From positions 1 through 64,000 of the forward strand of contig JAJVHY010000015.1 in NCBI GenBank assembly GCA_022072455.1: a stretch of 64,000 nucleotides of DNA, read 5' to 3'. Source of the stretch: Verrucomicrobiia bacterium. GTDB lineage: Bacteria > Verrucomicrobiota > Verrucomicrobiia > Palsa-1439. The position numbers and the translations under genes are program-made. The notes beneath the pieces were generated by a model. The model searched no databases. It had not been told where the DNA came from and was given only the letters and a program-made list of their open reading frames with translations. This document shows positions 22,660-60,600 of the stretch, in pieces. The first letter of the stretch is position 1, and every line of letters starts with the position of its first letter.

Positions 22660-24462
22660 ATGGCGACAGACACGCATCATCATCATAACGAACATCACGA
22701 CGAACCGAGTTGGATTCGGAAGTATGTTTTCTCGACCGACCACAAGGTCATTGGGATTCAGTACGGGCTGACGAGCCTGGTATTTTTGTTTTTTGGGTTT
22801 TGTTTGTTGATGATGATGCGTTGGCAGCTCGCGTATCCCGGTGAGGCGCTGCCGTTGTTGGGAAAATGGCTCGGTGAAGCGCGCATGCCAGGCGGGGTGA
22901 TGGCGCCGGAGTTTTACAATCAGCTCGGGGCGATGCACGGCACGATTATGGTGTTCCTCGGGGTGGTGCCGCTGGCGGTCGGCGCGTTTGGGAACTATCT
23001 GGTGCCGTTGCAGGTGGGGGCGCAGGACATGGCGTTCCCGAAGCTCAATATGTCGAGCTACTGGGTGTATTTCGTTGGTGGGGTGGTGATGTTCGCGAGT
23101 TTCTTCGTGCCGGAAGGCGCGGCGCAATCCGGGTGGACGTCGTACGCGCCGTTGTCAATCGTGACGACCCCCGCGCAATCCATTTTCCGCGGGCAGACGA
23201 TGTGGTTGATTGGGATGGTGTTTTTGATTACCTCGTCGCTCCTTGGGTCGGTCAATATCATTGTGACGATTGTGCAGTTGCGCGCGCCGGGTTTGACGTG
23301 GATGCGGTTGCCGTTTTTCTGTTGGGCGCAGTTGGTGACGTCGTTCCTGTTGTTGTTGGCGTTTCCGCCGTTGGAGGCGGCTGGGGTGATGCAGTTGATG
23401 GATCGGTTGGCGGGTTCGAGTTTCTTCATGCCGGCCGGCTTGGTGATCTCCGGCAAGCCATGGGAGGGGAGCGGTGGCGGGAGTGCGCTGTTGTGGCAAC
23501 ATCTGTTTTGGTTTCTGGCGCATCCGGAAGTTTACGTGTTGATCTTGCCGGCGATGGGGATTGTGGCGGAGGTCATCGCCAATAACACGCGGAAGCCGTT
23601 GTGGGGCTACAGCGCGTTGGTGTGGGCGTCGGCGATTCTTGGGTTTCTGTCGTTCGTGGTGTGGGCGCATCACATGTATCTGACCGGGATGGGGACGGCG
23701 ATCAGCGCGTTTTTCCAGACGACGACGATGTTGATATCAGTGCCGTCGATTATCATTTTGACGGCGCTGATTTTGTCGCTGTGGGGCGGTTCGATTCGGT
23801 TTACGACGCCGATGCTGTTTGCGTTGGCGTTTTTGCCGATGTTCGGGATTGGGGGGTTGACCGGCTTGCCACTCGGGTTGGCGACGTCGGACATTCAATT
23901 ACATGACACGTACTATGTCATTGGGCACTTCCATTATGTGGTTGCGCCAGGAACGATTTTCGCGTTGTTTGCCGGAATTTATTATTGGTATCCGAAGGTT
24001 ACCGGGCGACGGATGTCAGAGACGCTTGGAAAATGGCATTTCTGGGGGTCGCTGGTGTTTATGAACACGGTCTTTATGCCGATGTTCGTCCAAGGCATGG
24101 CCGGGATGTCGCGGCGCATGTACGACGGCGGCGAAGCGTATTTGCACAACCAGCACGTGCTCGGGTTCAACCGGATGATTGGGGTTGGGGCGTGGGGCTT
24201 GGGGTTGTTCCAGCTCTTTTTTATCATCAACTTTTTCTGGAGTCTCAAACGCGGCGAGAAGGTGAACGACAACCCGTGGAAGGCCACGACGCTCGAATGG
24301 AATACCCCCACGCCGCCGCCGCACGGGAATTTCACCAAGATCCCGGACGCGTATCGCGGGCCGTACGAATACAGCTTGCCGGGCTCAGACACGCACAAGG
24401 ATTATTACCCGCAATGGGAGCCGGACCACGTGGCCAAAGCCGGCCCGAAGGAGACTAAGTAA
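22660..24462 (+). CDS. ctaD: Cytochrome c oxidase subunit I
   Basis: 600 residues, 12 or more membrane helices. The haem-copper core is complete: MHGTIMVF, the H288-P-E290-V-Y292 loop that carries the CuB His, the proton-path Glu and the cross-linked Tyr, WAHHMYL for CuB, and the HDTYYVIGHFHYVV pair for haem a3 and haem a. The usual GHPEV motif reads AHPEV here. The N-terminus is His-rich. ATG 22660 with GGAG upstream is preferred over GTG 22636, which lies in the terminator T run. It starts the oxidase operon and overlaps subunit III by TAATG. Confidence 0.95.
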   Translation: MATDTHHHHNEHHDEPSWIRKYVFSTDHKVIGIQYGLTSLVFLFFGFCLLMMMRWQLAYPGEALPLLGKWLGEARMPGGVMAPEFYNQLGAMHGTIMVFLGVVPLAVGAFGNYLVPLQVGAQDMAFPKLNMSSYWVYFVGGVVMFASFFVPEGAAQSGWTSYAPLSIVTTPAQSIFRGQTMWLIGMVFLITSSLLGSVNIIVTIVQLRAPGLTWMRLPFFCWAQLVTSFLLLLAFPPLEAAGVMQLMDRLAGSSFFMPAGLVISGKPWEGSGGGSALLWQHLFWFLAHPEVYVLILPAMGIVAEVIANNTRKPLWGYSALVWASAILGFLSFVVWAHHMYLTGMGTAISAFFQTTTMLISVPSIIILTALILSLWGGSIRFTTPMLFALAFLPMFGIGGLTGLPLGLATSDIQLHDTYYVIGHFHYVVAPGTIFALFAGIYYWYPKVTGRRMSETLGKWHFWGSLVFMNTVFMPMFVQGMAGMSRRMYDGGEAYLHNQHVLGFNRMIGVGAWGLGLFQLFFIINFFWSLKRGEKVNDNPWKATTLEWNTPTPPPHGNFTKIPDAYRGPYEYSLPGSDTHKDYYPQWEPDHVAKAGPKETK

Positions 24463-25073
24463 TGTCAGCCCACATCGAGATTCCGTACAACATGGACGAG
24501 CGGCCGGATACCGGCTTGTATAATGCGAAGCTGGGCGTCTGGTTGTTTTTGGCGAGTGAAGTGATGCTCTTTGGCGCGTTGTTTTCCAGTTATGTGCTGT
24601 TGCGAACGGGTGCAAGCACGTGGGAGGCCGGGCATTTGATCTTGAACTGGAAGCTCGCGATGGTGAACACGTTCGTGCTCATCGGTTCGAGTGTCACGAT
24701 GGTCATGTCGTGGGCTGCGTTGAAGATGAATAATCTCGCGAAGTTCAAGCTGTACATGGGGCTGACGGTCCTGTGCGGGATTGCGTTTCTGGTGATCAAG
24801 GGTATTGAGTATGCCGCGAAGTTTGAGCATGGGCTGTTGCCAAATCAGAGTACGTTCATGGCGATCTATTTCACGATGACCGGGTTGCATGGGTTGCACG
24901 TCATTGGCGGGATGATTGTCAACGGCTACCTGCTTGGCCCAGGTTCGAAAATGTGGGCAACCGAACCGCAACGGTTCACCAATCGGATCGAAGTGGCCGG
25001 GCTGTACTGGCACTTCGTGGATCTGGTCTGGATTTTCCTCTTCCCAACGTTATATTTGTTGCCCGGAAAATAA
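24462..25073 (+). CDS. ctaE: Cytochrome c oxidase subunit III
   Basis: 203 residues, five membrane helices. Typical motifs are KLGVWLFLASEVMLFGALFSSYVLLR near the start, TGLHGLHVIGGMI and the C-terminal WHFVDLVWIFLFPTLYL. This short, five-helix form is usual in bacterial aa3/caa3 oxidases. It supports proton uptake and stability of subunit I. Start ATG 24462 overlaps the ctaD stop. Confidence 0.95.
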   Translation: MSAHIEIPYNMDERPDTGLYNAKLGVWLFLASEVMLFGALFSSYVLLRTGASTWEAGHLILNWKLAMVNTFVLIGSSVTMVMSWAALKMNNLAKFKLYMGLTVLCGIAFLVIKGIEYAAKFEHGLLPNQSTFMAIYFTMTGLHGLHVIGGMIVNGYLLGPGSKMWATEPQRFTNRIEVAGLYWHFVDLVWIFLFPTLYLLPGK

Positions 25074-25085
25074 GGAGATGACGCA

Positions 25086-25433
25086 ATGAGCGAAGCGGTT
25101 CAAAAACAAATCAAACAGTACCTGATTATTGGGCTGGCCTTGTTCATCGGTACGGTGCTGACGGTCTGGGTGGCTGAACTGAAGGTCACGATCCTGACCG
25201 GCATCATCATCGCCGTGATTATCGCCACGATCAAAAGCACACTGGTGGCCGGCTACTTCATGCACTTGCTGCATGAACGCAAAATAATCTATCAAATCCT
25301 GTTGTTGACCGCGGTTTTCACGGTCGTCATGGTTGGGTTGGTACTCTTTTCGCACAGCGACCAACAGGGCGCCCAGCACGGCATCTTCAATGTCCCGGCC
25401 AAACAAGTCCCGGCTGCCGCCGACCACCACTAA
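25086..25433 (+). CDS. ctaF: Cytochrome c oxidase subunit IV (prokaryotic type)
   Basis: 115 residues, three membrane helices. The segment KVTILTGIIIAVIIATIKSTLVAGYFMHLLHERK is the hallmark of COX4-pro proteins, which stabilise the CuB site in bacterial oxidases. A His-rich tail (AAADHH) ends the protein. GGAGATGACGC precedes the ATG. Confidence 0.9.
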   Translation: MSEAVQKQIKQYLIIGLALFIGTVLTVWVAELKVTILTGIIIAVIIATIKSTLVAGYFMHLLHERKIIYQILLLTAVFTVVMVGLVLFSHSDQQGAQHGIFNVPAKQVPAAADHH

Positions 25434-25438
25434 CCGCC

Positions 25439-25639
25439 ATGTCACTCAAAATTTTCCATCTGATCTTTGTCATCATCGCGGCGCTGTTCTGCATCGGGTT
25501 CGGAATTTGGTGCTTTACGGCGGAAACGGCGCGCGGTCAGGTTGTGTATACGTGGGTTGGAATTGTCTCGTTGGCGACCGTCGTGGCACTGGCGGTATTC
25601 GAAGTCAACTTTCTGCGCCGGATGCGGGGGGTGCGATGA
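25439..25639 (+). CDS. Small two-helix membrane protein in oxidase operon
   Basis: 66 residues: two hydrophobic helices (about 5-27 and 37-56) and a basic C-terminus. It lies 5 nt after subunit IV and overlaps the next small gene by ATGA. No family recognised; position and size suggest an accessory oxidase subunit or assembly factor. Confidence 0.7.
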   Translation: MSLKIFHLIFVIIAALFCIGFGIWCFTAETARGQVVYTWVGIVSLATVVALAVFEVNFLRRMRGVR

Positions 25640-25830
25640 GTTTCGCGGCTATCCTGATTGCGTGCGCCGTTTGTTTTGGTGATCCGAATTCCTCCCAAGT
25701 GAAGGGCCAAAACGCGGCCATTATTACCTTGTTGGGCATCACCGCAGTGGTGCTGACCGGCTTTGTGGCGATCATCATCCGGTTCGCCCGGCGCGCGCGG
25801 CAGATGAAATCACTTTCCCAAGTAGGATAA
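25636..25830 (+). CDS. Small membrane protein in oxidase operon (64 aa)
   Basis: 64 residues from ATG 25636, which overlaps the previous stop by ATGA. The N-terminus (MSFAAILIACAVCFGDPNSS) looks like a signal or anchor segment with two cysteines, and is followed by one transmembrane helix (about 28-49) and a basic tail. No family recognised. Translation coupling on the left and a 4-nt gap to subunit II mark it as part of the oxidase operon. Confidence 0.65.
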   Translation: MSFAAILIACAVCFGDPNSSQVKGQNAAIITLLGITAVVLTGFVAIIIRFARRARQMKSLSQVG

Positions 25831-25834
25831 GACC

Positions 25835-26776
25835 ATGCTTCAAAAACTCCTCGGCTTACCCATCAATGCCTCGGCGCACGGCGGCGAAATTGACAGCCTG
25901 ATTGGCTGGGTCCATCTCTTGATGGTCGTGTTGTTCATTGGCTGGATTCTGCTGTTTTTCTGGATGCTCGTCCGCTTCCGCAAAGGGCGGCAACCACGGG
26001 CTGACCACGAAGGCGTCAAATCCCACGCCTCATCCTACGTCGAAGCCGTGATTGTCGTGCTGGAAATCATCTTGCTCGTCGGCATCTCGATTCCGTTCTG
26101 GGCCAAAAAAGTCAACGCCTTCCCGACTGCGGCCGAGGATCCACTGCGCATCCGGGTCATCGCGCAACAATTCGCGTGGAACATCCACTACCCCGGCCCG
26201 GACGGAAAATTTGGCAAAACTGAAATCAACAAGATTGCCTCGGATAATCCCATCGGTCTCATCCGCAAGGGCGACGGCGCGGACGACGTCGTCGAAGTCA
26301 ACCAACTGTACATTCCGGTCAATCGCCCGATCATACTCGATACCACCACAATGGACGTGATTCACAGCGTGTTTCTCCCGCTGTTTCGGGTGAAGCAGGA
26401 TACGATTCCCGGCATGATCATTCCGATCTATTTCACCGCGACGCAGACCACCGAGGAAATCCGCCAACAGATGAAAGAGACGTTGCCGCTCGATTCGAAA
26501 CGCAACTTTGAGCTGTACGCGCCGGCGGCCGATGTCAAAAACGATAGTGGTGCCGTCATCGTCAAAAAAGGTGTTCGGATCAACGCCAGCGCGAAAAAGC
26601 GGCTCATTGACGCCGGTATCACCACACTCGAAGTCGTGCCGGCGAATCCGACGGAAATCGCCTGCGCCCAGCTCTGCGGCCTCAACCATTTCCGCATGAA
26701 AGGCTACGTCAATGTGTTGACCGCCGATGAGTTCAAGAAGTGGTACGCCGAGGAAGTCGAAAACCAGAGCGAATAA
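25835..26776 (+). CDS. ctaC: Cytochrome c oxidase subunit II with expanded CuA domain
   Basis: 313 residues: two membrane helices (about 23-45 and 70-90) and a periplasmic CuA domain. CuA ligands are H177 and the C277-x3-C281-x3-H285-x2-M288 motif (CAQLCGLNHFRM). The electron-entry segment QFAWNIHYPG is present. The spacing H177 to C277 is 100 residues against 35 in well-known homologues. An extra segment of about 65 residues (about 205-270, with KKGVRINASAKKRLIDAGI) is therefore inserted in the copper domain. There is no fused cytochrome c domain. It lies last among the subunits, an unusual order. Confidence 0.92.
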   Translation: MLQKLLGLPINASAHGGEIDSLIGWVHLLMVVLFIGWILLFFWMLVRFRKGRQPRADHEGVKSHASSYVEAVIVVLEIILLVGISIPFWAKKVNAFPTAAEDPLRIRVIAQQFAWNIHYPGPDGKFGKTEINKIASDNPIGLIRKGDGADDVVEVNQLYIPVNRPIILDTTTMDVIHSVFLPLFRVKQDTIPGMIIPIYFTATQTTEEIRQQMKETLPLDSKRNFELYAPAADVKNDSGAVIVKKGVRINASAKKRLIDAGITTLEVVPANPTEIACAQLCGLNHFRMKGYVNVLTADEFKKWYAEEVENQSE

Positions 26777-28467
26777 TGACGTCCCGCTGGCTTCATCGCT
26801 TGTGCTGGGTCACCGCCGGCGCGACGTTCCTCTTGATCGTTGTCGGCGCCACCGTCACGAGTAATCGGGCCGGTCTCTCCGTGCCTGATTGGCCGGAAAC
26901 CTACAGTCACCCGCTCTGGCGTTTTCCGCTCACCAAAATGGTCGGAGGTATTTTCTACGAGCACGGCCACCGGTTGCTTGCCAGTGTCGTTGGCTTGCTG
27001 ACCACGGCGATCACGGTTTGGACCTTCTTCTGGCAAAAAGACAAAACTCTCCGGCGACTCGGTTTGGCGGCGCTGGCCGGGGTTTTACTCCAAGGCTTGC
27101 TGGGTGGGTTGACAGTGAAGTTTCTCCTGCCGCCCGTCATTTCGGTCGCGCACGCGGCCTTGGCGCAGGCGTTTTTTTGCGTCACCATCACCCTCGCCCT
27201 GCTGACCTCAAGCAAAGCGTCGGCGGCTCCCGGTGCGACCACCGGTAGCGCGCGCGGTCTGGCCTTGGCTGCCACAATTGCCGTCTATCTGCAATTGATC
27301 CTTGGCGCGTCCATCCGGCACTCCGAGCGCGGTGAACTTGCCCATATCTGTGGCGCGATCGCGGTCATCGCTTTGGCGATCTTCATTGTTCGGCATCTCC
27401 GCGAATTTCGCGGCCCGGTGTTGACTCTGGCCGGCCTCATCATTTTCCAGGCCGGTCTCGGTATCCTCACTCTTTACACCCGGCAACCGAAACTTGCCCC
27501 CGGTCAACTCACTCCGCTGCAAACGTGGTTGCCGACACTGCATCTGGCGACCGGCGCCCTGATCTTGGCGGTAAGTTTTGTGCTGACCCTGCGGATTTTT
27601 CGCCAGACCGCGCCGACCCCACAGGCCACCTCCGTCGGTGATTTGATTGACCTCACCAAGCCGCGGATTGTCCTGATGGTGCTTGTGACAACCGCGCTGG
27701 GATTTTTTCTGGGCGGCAATTCGGCCGGGGAGATTTTGATTTTGGTGCTCGTGGGAGTCGGGTTGGCAACCGGCGGCTCGGCGGTTCTCAACAACTACCT
27801 CGACCGTGACGTGGACGCAAAAATGGCGCGCACTCGCGACCGCGCGCTACCGGCGGGGTTGGTGGCGCCGGCTCATGCGCTTGCGTTGGGCGTCACGCTT
27901 GTGCTGATCGGAGTTTTGACGCTCGTTTGGGCTGTCAATTTGCTGACCGGCTTTTTGGTGTTGCTCGCGGCTTTTCTCTACGTCCTGGTCTACACCCCGC
28001 TCAAGCGCGTCAGTTGGTTCAACACCACTGTTGGTGCGATTCCCGGCGCGATTCCGCCGTTGTGCGGGTGGGCGGCGGCGACGGGGCGACTTGATCTCGG
28101 CGCGTGGGTCTTGTTTGCGATCATGTTCGTCTGGCAACACCCGCATTTTTACGCCATCGCGTGGATGTTCAAGGACGACTACCGGGCGGCTGGGCTGAAA
28201 ATGCTGCCCACCATTGATCCGCCGGCCACGTTTCGACATACGCGCATTTACTCGGTCATCCTCATCGGCATCTCAGTCTTGCCGGCGGTGGTGGGGATGG
28301 TGGGGGTAATTTACATCTGCGGCGCGGTCGCGCTGGGCGTTGGGATGCTGGCTGTGGCGGTGGTTTTTGCGCGGACACAAACCTTCCTCGGCGCCAAGCG
28401 CTTGCTCAAAGCCTCGGTGATTTACTTGCCGTTGCTCGTGGTTTTGATGATTGTGGACCGGTTATGA
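26776..28467 (+). CDS. ctaAB: Fused haem A synthase (CtaA) and haem O synthase (CtaB)
   Basis: 563 residues from ATG 26776 (TAATG overlap with ctaC). The first half (about 1-285) is CtaA/COX15-like, with haem-binding histidines in EHGHRLLAS, VAHAALAQ, LAHICGA and LHLATGA. The second (about 293-563) is CtaB/CyoE, a UbiA-type prenyltransferase with NNYLDRDVDAKMARTRDR and the YTPLKR...WQHPHFYAIAWMFKDDY motifs. CtaB farnesylates haem b to haem O, and CtaA oxidises this to haem A. Joining them would channel the intermediate. Similar fusions are known in a few phyla. Confidence 0.92.
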   Translation: MTSRWLHRLCWVTAGATFLLIVVGATVTSNRAGLSVPDWPETYSHPLWRFPLTKMVGGIFYEHGHRLLASVVGLLTTAITVWTFFWQKDKTLRRLGLAALAGVLLQGLLGGLTVKFLLPPVISVAHAALAQAFFCVTITLALLTSSKASAAPGATTGSARGLALAATIAVYLQLILGASIRHSERGELAHICGAIAVIALAIFIVRHLREFRGPVLTLAGLIIFQAGLGILTLYTRQPKLAPGQLTPLQTWLPTLHLATGALILAVSFVLTLRIFRQTAPTPQATSVGDLIDLTKPRIVLMVLVTTALGFFLGGNSAGEILILVLVGVGLATGGSAVLNNYLDRDVDAKMARTRDRALPAGLVAPAHALALGVTLVLIGVLTLVWAVNLLTGFLVLLAAFLYVLVYTPLKRVSWFNTTVGAIPGAIPPLCGWAAATGRLDLGAWVLFAIMFVWQHPHFYAIAWMFKDDYRAAGLKMLPTIDPPATFRHTRIYSVILIGISVLPAVVGMVGVIYICGAVALGVGMLAVAVVFARTQTFLGAKRLLKASVIYLPLLVVLMIVDRL

Positions 28468-29207
28468 AAATCTTTTTGACTGGCTTCTTGTTGCTGGTCA
28501 TCGGTTGCGGCAAACCGAGTGAGCCACCGGCGGCGGCGCCTCTCGCGACCCCGGCTCAACCGGCCCCGCCCGGGACCGCTGTCATCACCGGCAAAGTGAC
28601 CTACCGGGGAGATGCTCCGCGCTTAAGCCCCTTGCGCATGACGGCGGATCCGTACTGTGAATCCACCCACAGCGGCACGGCCCCGAATAGTGAGGAGATT
28701 CTCGTCAATGCCGACGGCACCCTGCGAAATGTTTTCGTGTATGTGAAAGAGGGCATCCGCGGCACCTATCCGCCCCCCGCCGCGCCGGTGATTCTCGATC
28801 AGCTTGGCTGTCTCTACCGGCCGCGCGTGCAGGGTTTACAAATCGGGCAGACGTTGCTGATCCGCAATAGCGATGACACCCTGCACAATGTCCACGCGCT
28901 GGCCGACAAAAACCCAGCCTTCAACCTTGGCCAACCCAGCCGCGGCATGGAGGCAAAAAAAGTTTTTACAAAGCCGGAGGTCATGTTGCGCTTCAAATGC
29001 GATGTTCATCCGTGGATGAGCGCCTACCTCGGCATTGTCGCGCATCCGTTCCACGCCACCACCGGAGACGGCGGCGTGTTCACCCTCAAGAATCTGCCCG
29101 CCGGTAAGTACGTCGTCGAAGCCTGGCATGAAAAACTCGGCACCCAGACCCTTACGTTGGAATTGGCCGACGGCGAGACGAAGCCGGTGGAGCTGGCGTT
29201 TCCGTGA
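28464..29207 (+). CDS. Amicyanin-like cupredoxin lipoprotein (second paralogue)
   Basis: 247 residues. A lipobox (LLVIGCGK, lipidated Cys about 15) and a Pro/Ala-rich linker anchor the protein to a membrane. The domain closely matches the gene at 21847: VFVYVKEGIRGTYPPP, LHNVH (H141/H144) and C179-x2-H182-x2-M185 (CDVHPWM), then the same beta-sandwich C-terminus. It overlaps ctaAB by ATGA, so it is made with the oxidase. It may bring electrons to CuA or supply copper. Confidence 0.85.
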   Translation: MKIFLTGFLLLVIGCGKPSEPPAAAPLATPAQPAPPGTAVITGKVTYRGDAPRLSPLRMTADPYCESTHSGTAPNSEEILVNADGTLRNVFVYVKEGIRGTYPPPAAPVILDQLGCLYRPRVQGLQIGQTLLIRNSDDTLHNVHALADKNPAFNLGQPSRGMEAKKVFTKPEVMLRFKCDVHPWMSAYLGIVAHPFHATTGDGGVFTLKNLPAGKYVVEAWHEKLGTQTLTLELADGETKPVELAFP

Positions 29208-30169
29208 CCGCCGTTGTCGCCATCGATAATCTCACGCACCGGTATCCGCCTTCGCCGGGGCTACGGCGGACAGGTGGCGACCGGGTGGCGCTTGATCGGG
29301 TCAGCTTCGCCGTTCAACCGGGCGAAATCTTCGGTCTGCTCGGGCCGAACGGCGGCGGCAAGACCACACTGTTCCGCATCCTCAGCACGTTGGTTCGCCC
29401 ACAAGAAGGCAACGTGCGCGTGTTTGGCCAGGATGTCATCACTCAGCGTAATCAAGTCCGGCGGCGGATCGGCGTCGTTTTCCAGGCGCCAAGTCTCGAC
29501 AAGAAATTGACCGTCCGCGAAAACCTCCGGCATCACGGACACATTTTTGGATTGAGCGGCGCGCCGCTCCGGCAACGAATTGATGAATTACTGAATCGAT
29601 TTGGGATTGCCGACCGGGCGGACGAGCGCACGGAGAAACTGTCCGGTGGTTTGCGCCGGCGCGTTGAAATCGCCCGCGGCCTGTTGCATAAGCCGGAACT
29701 GCTCCTGCTGGATGAACCGAGCACCGGTCTCGACCCGCGGGTGCGTCGGGAAGTGGGCGATTACTTGGAAGAACTGCGTTCCAAGGATGGCGTAACGATT
29801 TTGGTGACGACGCACATCATGGAGGAAGCCGAACGCTGCGACCGGCTCGCGCTTCTCGATCAAGGCAAGCTGATCGCTCTCGACAAGCCGGCCACGCTGA
29901 AAGATCGAGTCGGCGGCGATGTCATCACGGTCAGTGCCAAAGCCCCTGAGTCTCTCAGTGCTCAAGTGCGGGAGAAATTTGGCATTGAAGCGCAGCTCGT
30001 CGATGGTGCGGTCCGGATTGAACGCCCGCGTGGTCACGAGTTCATCCCGCAATTAGTCGAGGCGTTTCCGGGTGCGATTGAATCGGTCACGGTTGGCAAG
30101 CCGACGCTGGAAGACGTGTTCATCCATTTGACCGGCCATCGGTTGGACGACGCACCTTCCAACCTGTAG
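29204..30169 (+). CDS. ABC transporter ATP-binding protein, permease absent
   Basis: 321 residues. Walker A is GPNGGGKTT (47-55), followed by the signature LSGGLRRRVEIARG, Walker B LLLLDEPSTGLD and the switch TTHIMEEAE. The C-terminal extension (about 230-310) is of the DrrA/multidrug export type. The GTG start overlaps the cupredoxin stop (GTGA). No permease gene follows on this strand. Residues 15-23 (PPSPGLRRT) are extra to the normal first strand and are encoded by a palindromic repeat (29245-29271). Neighbours suggest a role in haem or copper-protein maturation. Confidence 0.9.
   Translation: MTAVVAIDNLTHRYPPSPGLRRTGGDRVALDRVSFAVQPGEIFGLLGPNGGGKTTLFRILSTLVRPQEGNVRVFGQDVITQRNQVRRRIGVVFQAPSLDKKLTVRENLRHHGHIFGLSGAPLRQRIDELLNRFGIADRADERTEKLSGGLRRRVEIARGLLHKPELLLLDEPSTGLDPRVRREVGDYLEELRSKDGVTILVTTHIMEEAERCDRLALLDQGKLIALDKPATLKDRVGGDVITVSAKAPESLSAQVREKFGIEAQLVDGAVRIERPRGHEFIPQLVEAFPGAIESVTVGKPTLEDVFIHLTGHRLDDAPSNL
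29245..29271 (-). repeat. 27-bp palindromic element, in frame in the ABC ATPase
   Basis: On the minus strand it reads GTCCGCCGTAGC, then nine bases, then GGCGGA. The outer TCCGCC/GGCGGA arms pair. It matches the element at 60022-60048 at about 22 of 27 positions. Confidence 0.7.
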
Positions 30170-59382: not shown

Positions 59383-59996
59383 TGATGAAAACGACACGGA
59401 GAGGTCAGCGGTCAGTGGGCAGCGGTCAGAAGTCAGGCGGCGGTCTGAGCGCTGGGCGGGCGCGACCTGTGCGTCATCGCTTGAGTGGCAGCGGATTTAC
59501 CTTGATCGAGTTGCTGACGGTGATCGTGATCATTGCGATTCTGGCGGCGTTGCTGTTCCCGGCGGTCAAAAAAGTCCTCCAGAAAGCCGAAATCAACCAG
59601 GCTCGGGGTGACGTGAAGAACATCGAGCACGCCATTAAAGCGTTTGTGACGGAATACGGCTATTTGCCGGCCACCGCAACGGTCGATACTTGGTACGATT
59701 CGGGTTCGGCCAGCAGCATTTACAACGTCTTGCGGGCGACGACGGCGAGCACGCTCAACCCGCGGAAAATTGTTTTCTTGGAGACCCCCAGCCGGAAGGG
59801 CGCGTTCGACGGCAGTGGCAATTTTCTGGATCCTTGGGGGCAGGTTTATTATCTGAAATTGGACAATGATTATGATGGGGTAATTGATCACCACGGCACC
59901 CGGCGAATGTCGGTGGTGGTGGTCAGCTATGGCCCGAACAAAATCCAAGATGATCCCAACCTGAGTCAAAGCGATGATATCGTCAATTTTCAATAA
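59382..59996 (+). CDS. GspG-like pseudopilin 2
   Basis: 204 residues from ATG 59382 (TGATG overlap; ATG 59385 is an alternative). A basic leader of about 36 residues precedes [26 protein letters not shown]. The body has FLETPSRKGAFDGSGNFLDPWG and ends SDDIVNFQ. It is a tandem paralogue of the next gene. The leader contains GGTCAG reiterations (59403-59437). Probably an exported pseudopilus or secretion subunit. Confidence 0.87.
   Translation: MMKTTRRGQRSVGSGQKSGGGLSAGRARPVRHRLSGSGFTLIELLTVIVIIAILAALLFPAVKKVLQKAEINQARGDVKNIEHAIKAFVTEYGYLPATATVDTWYDSGSASSIYNVLRATTASTLNPRKIVFLETPSRKGAFDGSGNFLDPWGQVYYLKLDNDYDGVIDHHGTRRMSVVVVSYGPNKIQDDPNLSQSDDIVNFQ
59403..59437 (+). repeat. GGTCAG reiteration in the leader of pseudopilin 2
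   Basis: Four GGTCAG/GGGCAG/AGTCAG units in a row, in frame, of the same type as in the preceding gene. Confidence 0.6.
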
Positions 59997-60600
59997 ACGC
60001 CGGGGACTTGTGCACCGTCGTGTCCGCCGTAGCTTTCGCGGAGGCGGAAGCTTTAGTTGTGGCGGGTTTACTCTCGTCGAACTGCTGACGGTTATCGTCA
60101 TCATCGCGATACTTGTGGCGCTGTTGTTCCCGGCCATCAAGACCACAATTCTCAAGGCGGAGACGAACCAGGCGAAGGCTGACACCGAGGCCATTGAGAA
60201 CGCAATCCAAAGCTATCGGAATGAGTATGGCAAGTTGCCGACGCAGACCTCTGACCAAGGCGGTGCTGATCAACTCTATGACTCGAGCAACGCCTATCAC
60301 ATCTACAACACACTGCGCGCTATTTCATCGGGTTGGAATAGTGGCGCCACAGCGTTAAATCCGCGGGGGATTGCTTTCTTGGAAACGCCGTCACGCAAGG
60401 GAGCATTTGATGGAAATGGCAATTTCCTTGATCCGTGGGGCGGGACGTATCTGCTCGTGTTTGACTGTAATTATAATGGGTTAATCTCAGTCGGGTCATA
60501 TACGAACCTCCCCGGCCCGGCCTTGGTAATAAGTTATGGACCAGATCGAGTCTCCAGCAACGTCGCTACAGCCGCCGATGATATCGTCAACTACAAATAA
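59974..60600 (+). CDS. GspG-like pseudopilin 3
   Basis: 208 residues from ATG 59974, overlapping the previous gene by 23 nt. The leader (about 31 residues, Arg/Gly-rich) precedes GG|FTLVELLTVIVIIAILVALLFPAI. The body repeats FLETPSRKGAFDGNGNFLDPWGG and ends ADDIVNYK, clearly a duplicate of pseudopilin 2. The leader carries the 27-bp palindromic element at 60022-60048. Confidence 0.87.
   Translation: MISSIFNKRRGLVHRRVRRSFRGGGSFSCGGFTLVELLTVIVIIAILVALLFPAIKTTILKAETNQAKADTEAIENAIQSYRNEYGKLPTQTSDQGGADQLYDSSNAYHIYNTLRAISSGWNSGATALNPRGIAFLETPSRKGAFDGNGNFLDPWGGTYLLVFDCNYNGLISVGSYTNLPGPALVISYGPDRVSSNVATAADDIVNYK
60022..60048 (+). repeat. 27-bp palindromic element, in frame in a prepilin leader
   Basis: GTCCGCCGTAGC, nine variable bases, GGCGGA. 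The TCCGCC/GGCGGA arms pair. It is the same family as the element in the ABC ATPase (29245-29271, opposite strand). Confidence 0.7.

Follow-up and report, generated by a model that had tools for sequence, protein, structure and literature searches.

Palindromic repeats that insert in frame

The closest described systems are the GTAG and CGTC REPs, of which in-frame copies are on record for both Rickettsia and the verrucomicrobium Opitutus terrae (Di Nocera et al. 2013, PMC3733652). CGTC REPs are imperfect hairpins of 20-40 bp with a loop of 4-5 nt. They occur in several phyla, Alphaproteobacteria and Bacteroidetes among them, and are mostly extragenic, with some copies in frame in genes and no flanking transposase gene; they have been noted as repeats without a transposase (PMC3733652). 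Their superfamily is recognized by an unpaired terminal CGTC (or TGTC/CCTC) head (PMC3733652). GTAG REPs, with RAYTs and REPINs, are short hairpin repeats with an extragenic bias (PMC3733652, PMC3116915), and intragenic GTAG copies have been reported in O. terrae (PMC3733652). The Rickettsia palindromic elements RPE-1, RPE-4 and RPE-6 are palindromic insertions that lie in frame in likely functional genes; RPE-4 and RPE-6 are CGTC repeats and RPE-1 is longer (PMC3733652).

Here, in-frame palindromic insertion, best known from Rickettsia and a few REP-rich genomes, is extended to a repeat that is nearly unchanged across phyla. We analysed a 64,000-nt stretch of DNA (the window) that contains an ABC ATPase gene interrupted by ten additional codons. 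With high probability, these codons stem from the insertion of a 30-bp REP-like palindromic element that is widespread among bacteria. The relevant features of the window are as follows:

29204..30169, plus strand: ABC-2-type ABC transporter ATPase (DrrA/CcmA-like), 321 aa (Pfam ABC_tran, 2e-37; alignment; AF2 model)
29245..29274, minus strand: REP-like element, full 30-bp unit (empty-site comparison with L051; logo; covariance-model match of 49.0 bits)
59974..60600, plus strand: pseudopilin gene, with the second element copy in its N-terminal leader
60019..60048, plus strand: second element copy, reading frame RVRRSFRGGG, which differs from that of the ATPase copy

A 30-bp insertion in an ABC ATPase gene

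The original prediction held that two similar 27-bp palindromes lie in the window, one of them inserted in the ATPase. The pattern TCCGCCGTAGC-N-GGCGGA was present at both places (29245-29270 on the minus strand and 60023-60048 on the plus strand) and nowhere else in the window, and 100 shuffles gave 0 matches. By inspection, the two 27-mers were alike at 22 of 27 bases, exactly as predicted. The second copy lies in the pseudopilin leader, ahead of the GFTLVELL prepilin cleavage motif.

The ATPase ORF (29204-30169) begins with a GTG that overlaps the stop codon of the upstream neighbour gene. Its closest orthologue (L051, 75% identity, from genome G001 of the same genus) reads CACCGGTACGGCGACC at the site, whereas the window gene reads CACCGGTA-insert-TGGCGACC, with exactly 10 extra codons. 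The insert, TCCGCCTTCGCCGGGGCTACGGCGGACAGG, spans 29245-29274 (30 bp); on the minus strand this unit reads CCTG-TCCGCCGTAGC-CCCG-GCGAAGGCGGA, with a boundary uncertain by ~1 bp. The insertion is in frame because 30 is 10 × 3. The element encodes residues 15-24 of the ATPase (PPSPGLRRTG). The residues and their position had been anticipated correctly; the length had not, as the insertion is 30 bp and 10 residues rather than 27 bp and nine. The ten residues directly follow Y14, at the end of strand 1, and Y14 corresponds to the A-loop aromatic residue of ABC ATPases. They were absent from all 19 aligned homologues, one of which (L060) is longer by three residues there.

The motifs of the ATPase are conserved, namely Walker A (GPNGGGKT), the LSGG signature, Walker B (LLLLDEP) and the H-loop histidine. 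Comparison with G001 gave a dN of 0.185 and a dS of 1.78 (dN/dS ~0.10), which indicates that purifying selection has acted on the gene, for the most part before the insertion. The ATPase gene is followed by an ABC-2 permease gene in relatives; here, a 65%-identical permease is encoded on contig C18 instead. The motifs, the dN/dS ratio and this permease together make ATPase function plausible, as judged from sequence. In the AlphaFold2 model (mean pLDDT 92), residues 15-24 form a lower-confidence loop between strands 5-14 and 27-37, and the insert is thus predicted to be a flexible beta-hairpin loop at the surface of the protein. The motifs, the ratio, the permease partner in the genome and the confidently modelled fold agree with the proposal that the element is tolerated in a mature enzyme. 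Overall, what had been observed at this locus is confirmed and most of its interpretation supported; neither of the two checks proposed with it, on homologues and on repetition in the genome, refuted it.

The surrounding operon (24462-30169) is a cytochrome oxidase operon that encodes subunits III, IV-like and II, a CtaA-CtaB fusion, a plastocyanin-like protein and the ATPase as the last gene, with no ABC-2 permease gene adjacent.

Among the copies in its own genome, the ATPase copy is the nearest to the consensus, and its insertion may therefore be recent.

Structure of the element

On the GTAGC strand, the consensus is 5'-CYTG-TCCGCC-GTA-GC-N4-GC-GAA-GGCGGA (30 bp). It folds into a hairpin in which a 3x3 internal loop separates a basal stem of 6 bp from an upper stem with a small loop. 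The element had been termed a palindrome, which holds for the hairpin; the palindrome is imperfect, however, with the internal loop (GTA/GAA) conserved. Folding of the minus strand of the ATPase copy as single-stranded DNA gave the same hairpin (-7.8 kcal/mol, z -1.9).

A logo was built from 133 strict copies, all taken from other genomes. Its information rose above background from position -4 (C-Y-T-G) and dropped just past GGCGGA. The ends of the logo coincide with those obtained from the empty site, and these separate estimates define one 30-bp unit. The loop was 4 nt long, corresponding to the 30-bp unit, in 101 of the 133 copies. We observed covariation at the outermost pair (U-A, C-G) and at the innermost pair (22 C-G and 19 U-A, n=44), and the covariation score of the hairpin exceeded those of all 500 shuffles and all slid registers. 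The consensus form is free of stop codons in five of six frames. In general terms the element is REP-like: it is 30 bp long, forms a hairpin, is repeated in the genome and is mostly extragenic.

Distribution across genomes

A search of 84,980 genomes for an exact 22-base match yielded at least 117 stretches in at least nine phyla. Matches came from Verrucomicrobiota (with Kiritimatiellae and Lentisphaeria), Planctomycetota, Acidobacteriota, Bacteroidota, Alphaproteobacteria, Geomonas, Omnitrophota, Patescibacteria and others; the isolate genomes of Bradyrhizobium, Geomonas and Flaviaesturariibacter contain the element. In an even sample of Verrucomicrobiota, the strict consensus was found in 41 of 388 genomes and the reversed-pattern control in none. 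Copy number is patchy, with 0 copies in G001 of the same genus, 10-95 in several family members and at least 121 in G034. Fifteen stretches with the element were present in a collection of 2.9 million viral contigs. A 32-bp blastn query, a weak test, had no match in plasmids, and Rfam contained no match to the element.

Other copies in this genome

The genome surveyed comprises 4.82 Mb in 36 contigs. Exact matches to TCCGCCGTAGC-N-GGCGGA were limited to the two in the window. A pattern with three mismatches was too loose (26 matches versus 19 for the reversed control), and a covariance model of 44 copies was used instead. It gave 22 matches at E<0.01, which bears out the prediction that the element is repeated; the E-values are rough, and several copies from this genome were in the training set. 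The logo and the strict-pattern evidence are independent of this model.

Copies lie within genes in both orientations. The hsdM copy is read as PPSPGLRRAS, in the same frame as the ATPase copy, and at this insert the protein is ~12 residues longer than most homologues and five longer than L303. An apparent in-frame copy in hsdR encodes NPADVKAMAGT, and a C-terminal tail on contig C20 is another case. A capK-like match (C1:458566) is possibly not a genuine insertion. More apparent in-frame copies were seen in other genomes (L361, G040 hsdS; L363, G005 larC-like; L365, G023 helicase), and type I R-M genes (hsdM, hsdR, hsdS) recur as hosts of the element.

In ychF, the insert encodes GLPAEALAKAG in this genome. 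Eroded copies fill this site in G004 and G010, and it is empty in G009, G005, G008, G002 and G007. In both G004 and G010 the stem is broken and the frame retained, as predicted by neutral decay within a constrained gene. An insertion common to three genomes and eroding in two indicates that such inserts can persist; the case for long-term persistence rests on ychF, not on the ATPase gene. Together, ATPase and ychF are clean natural experiments in conserved enzymes, with exact empty and filled sites and a later erosion series, and they make it testable how selfish DNA gives proteins new loop segments.

A duplicated 3'-end fragment of glnS contains several copies, and the intact glnS ~1 kb upstream has none. 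This region (G000:C1, about 63500-66500; L242) is a natural filled/empty pair. By inspection, no target duplication was visible at the ATPase, glnS-copy and ychF sites.

Placement inside and outside genes

Only 32 of 132 strict copies (24%) fell inside ORFs of at least 180 aa, whereas 76% of positions drawn at random from these loci did so (p about 1e-31). The element is thus REP-like, with a tolerated intragenic minority. The intragenic copies used at least four reading frames (SAVAxAKA, VRRSxxEGG, SAFAxATAD and PPSxxLRRT), and the frame with the TAG stop was not used. It follows that DNA spreads here, not a peptide. Loop lengths that shift the frame were less frequent in ORF copies (4 of 32 versus 28 of 100), a difference that was not significant (p=0.098). 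In other phyla, Pfam placed copies within a protein kinase, an FAD oxidoreductase, which has two in tandem, and an AIRS C-terminal domain, as well as in the linkers of two fusion proteins (AIRS-CMD and 2-oxoacid dehydrogenase). In L105 and L186, a hydrophobic N-terminal stretch is followed immediately by the reverse frame SAFAxATAD, and the element may supply the signal-peptide cleavage region there.

Comparison with known repeat families

The 30-bp element shares with CGTC REPs the length and form of the hairpin, the loop size, the occurrence in several phyla, the extragenic bias with some in-frame copies and the lack of a flanking transposase gene (PMC3733652). It differs in its conserved GTA/GAA internal loop and apparently in its head, which reads CYTG/YTGT rather than CGTC. 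Instead of the two A-T pairs and the CCA tail of CGTC REPs (PMC3733652), it has a stem that starts with T-A and C-G pairs and a weak 3' flank (A/T, G, C). In the logo, the head C-Y-T-G is followed by TC; reading TGTC would require the first two stem pairs to count as unpaired, yet the first pair covaries. The element also extends to Verrucomicrobiota, Planctomycetota, Acidobacteriota, Omnitrophota and Patescibacteria.

With GTAG REPs, RAYTs and REPINs it has the short hairpin and the extragenic bias in common. Here, however, GTAG is part of a hairpin arm and not an unpaired terminal tag, and no element-flanked Y1_Tnp gene was found among ~21 loci. Like the Rickettsia elements, it is inserted in frame in likely functional genes (ATPase, hsdM, ychF, hsdR and Pfam-domain cases elsewhere); judged by their description it would belong to a different sequence family, and it is present in many phyla. 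A literature search of main texts for core strings matched 24 papers, and the 20 among the matches listed were off-topic by title and abstract. The family belongs to an already known, REP-like kind of short and probably selfish repeat and is itself apparently undescribed.

Alternative explanations

Could the decapeptide have been selected for a role in the protein, for example in regulating ATP binding, with the DNA likeness secondary? It adjoins the A-loop tyrosine, and its frame recurs in hsdM as PPSPGLRRAS. We consider this very unlikely in view of the four or more different frames across genes and phyla, the majority of copies outside long ORFs, the low confidence of the predicted loop and the absence of the insert from the homologues. 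An mRNA hairpin kept for its effect on translation, stability or attenuation of the cytochrome oxidase-ATPase operon would explain the covarying pairs, and the copy is close to the beginning of the operon's last gene; copies are also mostly intergenic, as for REPs. Such a role is nevertheless unlikely: both orientations occur within genes, the stem was lost and the frame kept in ychF of two relatives, orthologues of the operon lack the hairpin, and Rfam has no match.

Hairpin loops of ABC ATPases do vary in length, as the three extra residues of L060 illustrate, and a GC-rich loop might merely resemble the repeat. But all 22 core bases equal the consensus seen across phyla, shuffles and the reversed pattern in 388 genomes gave no match, and the exact unit boundaries, with insert ends identical to those of the family logo, refute chance or ordinary loop variation, whose probability we regard as negligible. 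The genome is metagenome-derived, is in 36 contigs and may be incomplete. An assembly artefact is still extremely improbable: the frame is preserved across an insertion of exactly one unit, the same element family occurs in isolate genomes, and the ychF insertion is common to three independent genomes. Insertion of the REP-like element remains the preferred reading, and the ten ATPase residues are most likely functionless in themselves.

Mobility of the element

We infer that the unit moves as single-stranded hairpin DNA and that the imperfect stem and the unpaired 5' CYTG head serve for its recognition. The enzyme that moves it would most likely be a Y1/HUH (RAYT- or IS200-like) transposase acting in trans, and Y1/HUH transposition would leave no target duplication. 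By analogy, the exact-unit insertion, the lack of a visible target duplication, the unpaired head and the patchy abundance resemble Y1/HUH REP transposition. Insertions in coding sequence would persist only if they preserve frame and fold, and would then erode as neutral spacer.

Of 29 relatives, 22 have Y1_Tnp genes. These include every one of the 11 relatives with five or more copies of the element, as against 11 of the 18 that are poor in it (p=0.02), a correlation confounded by both kinship and genome size. The element is absent from three genomes that have 4, 11 and 48 Y1 genes. None of ~21 distinct Y1_Tnp loci in element-bearing genomes was flanked by copies on both sides; five had an element match within ~3 kb, only mildly above density. 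The element clusters examined enclosed no transposase and no common enzyme. Since the Y1 genes are unflanked and the clusters lack a common enzyme, the evidence lends only moderate weight to a trans-acting Y1 transposase, a guess to which we assign somewhat less than an even chance. It is possible, if rather doubtful, that the family represents a cross-phylum, coding-compatible form of selfish DNA in which the 10-codon length and the stop-free frames allow survival in genes and which an enzyme in trans still moves both within genomes and from one to another. The family is well suited to a search for the mover of CGTC-like repeats.

No RAYT-flanked 'REPtron' was found in the Y1 loci or element clusters. 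DUF559 is not supported as a mobiliser of the family; among the matches listed, it was present at one of 117 element-bearing loci, and the element there lies inside the loop of another repeat. This locus, on an alphaproteobacterial contig (L152:2177-3400), has two DUF559 genes amid CCCTCCC...GGGAGGG palindromes, one of which holds the 30-bp element in its loop.

A possible separate in-frame mobile element with DUF559

A DUF559 (Vsr-like endonuclease) ORF was observed between the two halves of another palindrome (PSPQPSPSGRG ... GRGAGGEG), in frame within type I R-M genes at several different sites. The insertions are:

L324: G000:C16:2586-2894
L321: G036 hsdM
L322: G052 hsdR
L323: G029 hsdR
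L325: G034 hsdM

In L310 (G024 hsdM), the palindrome alone is present at the site occupied by DUF559 in G036. DUF559 with its palindrome and the palindrome alone look like the autonomous and solo forms of an in-frame mobile element.
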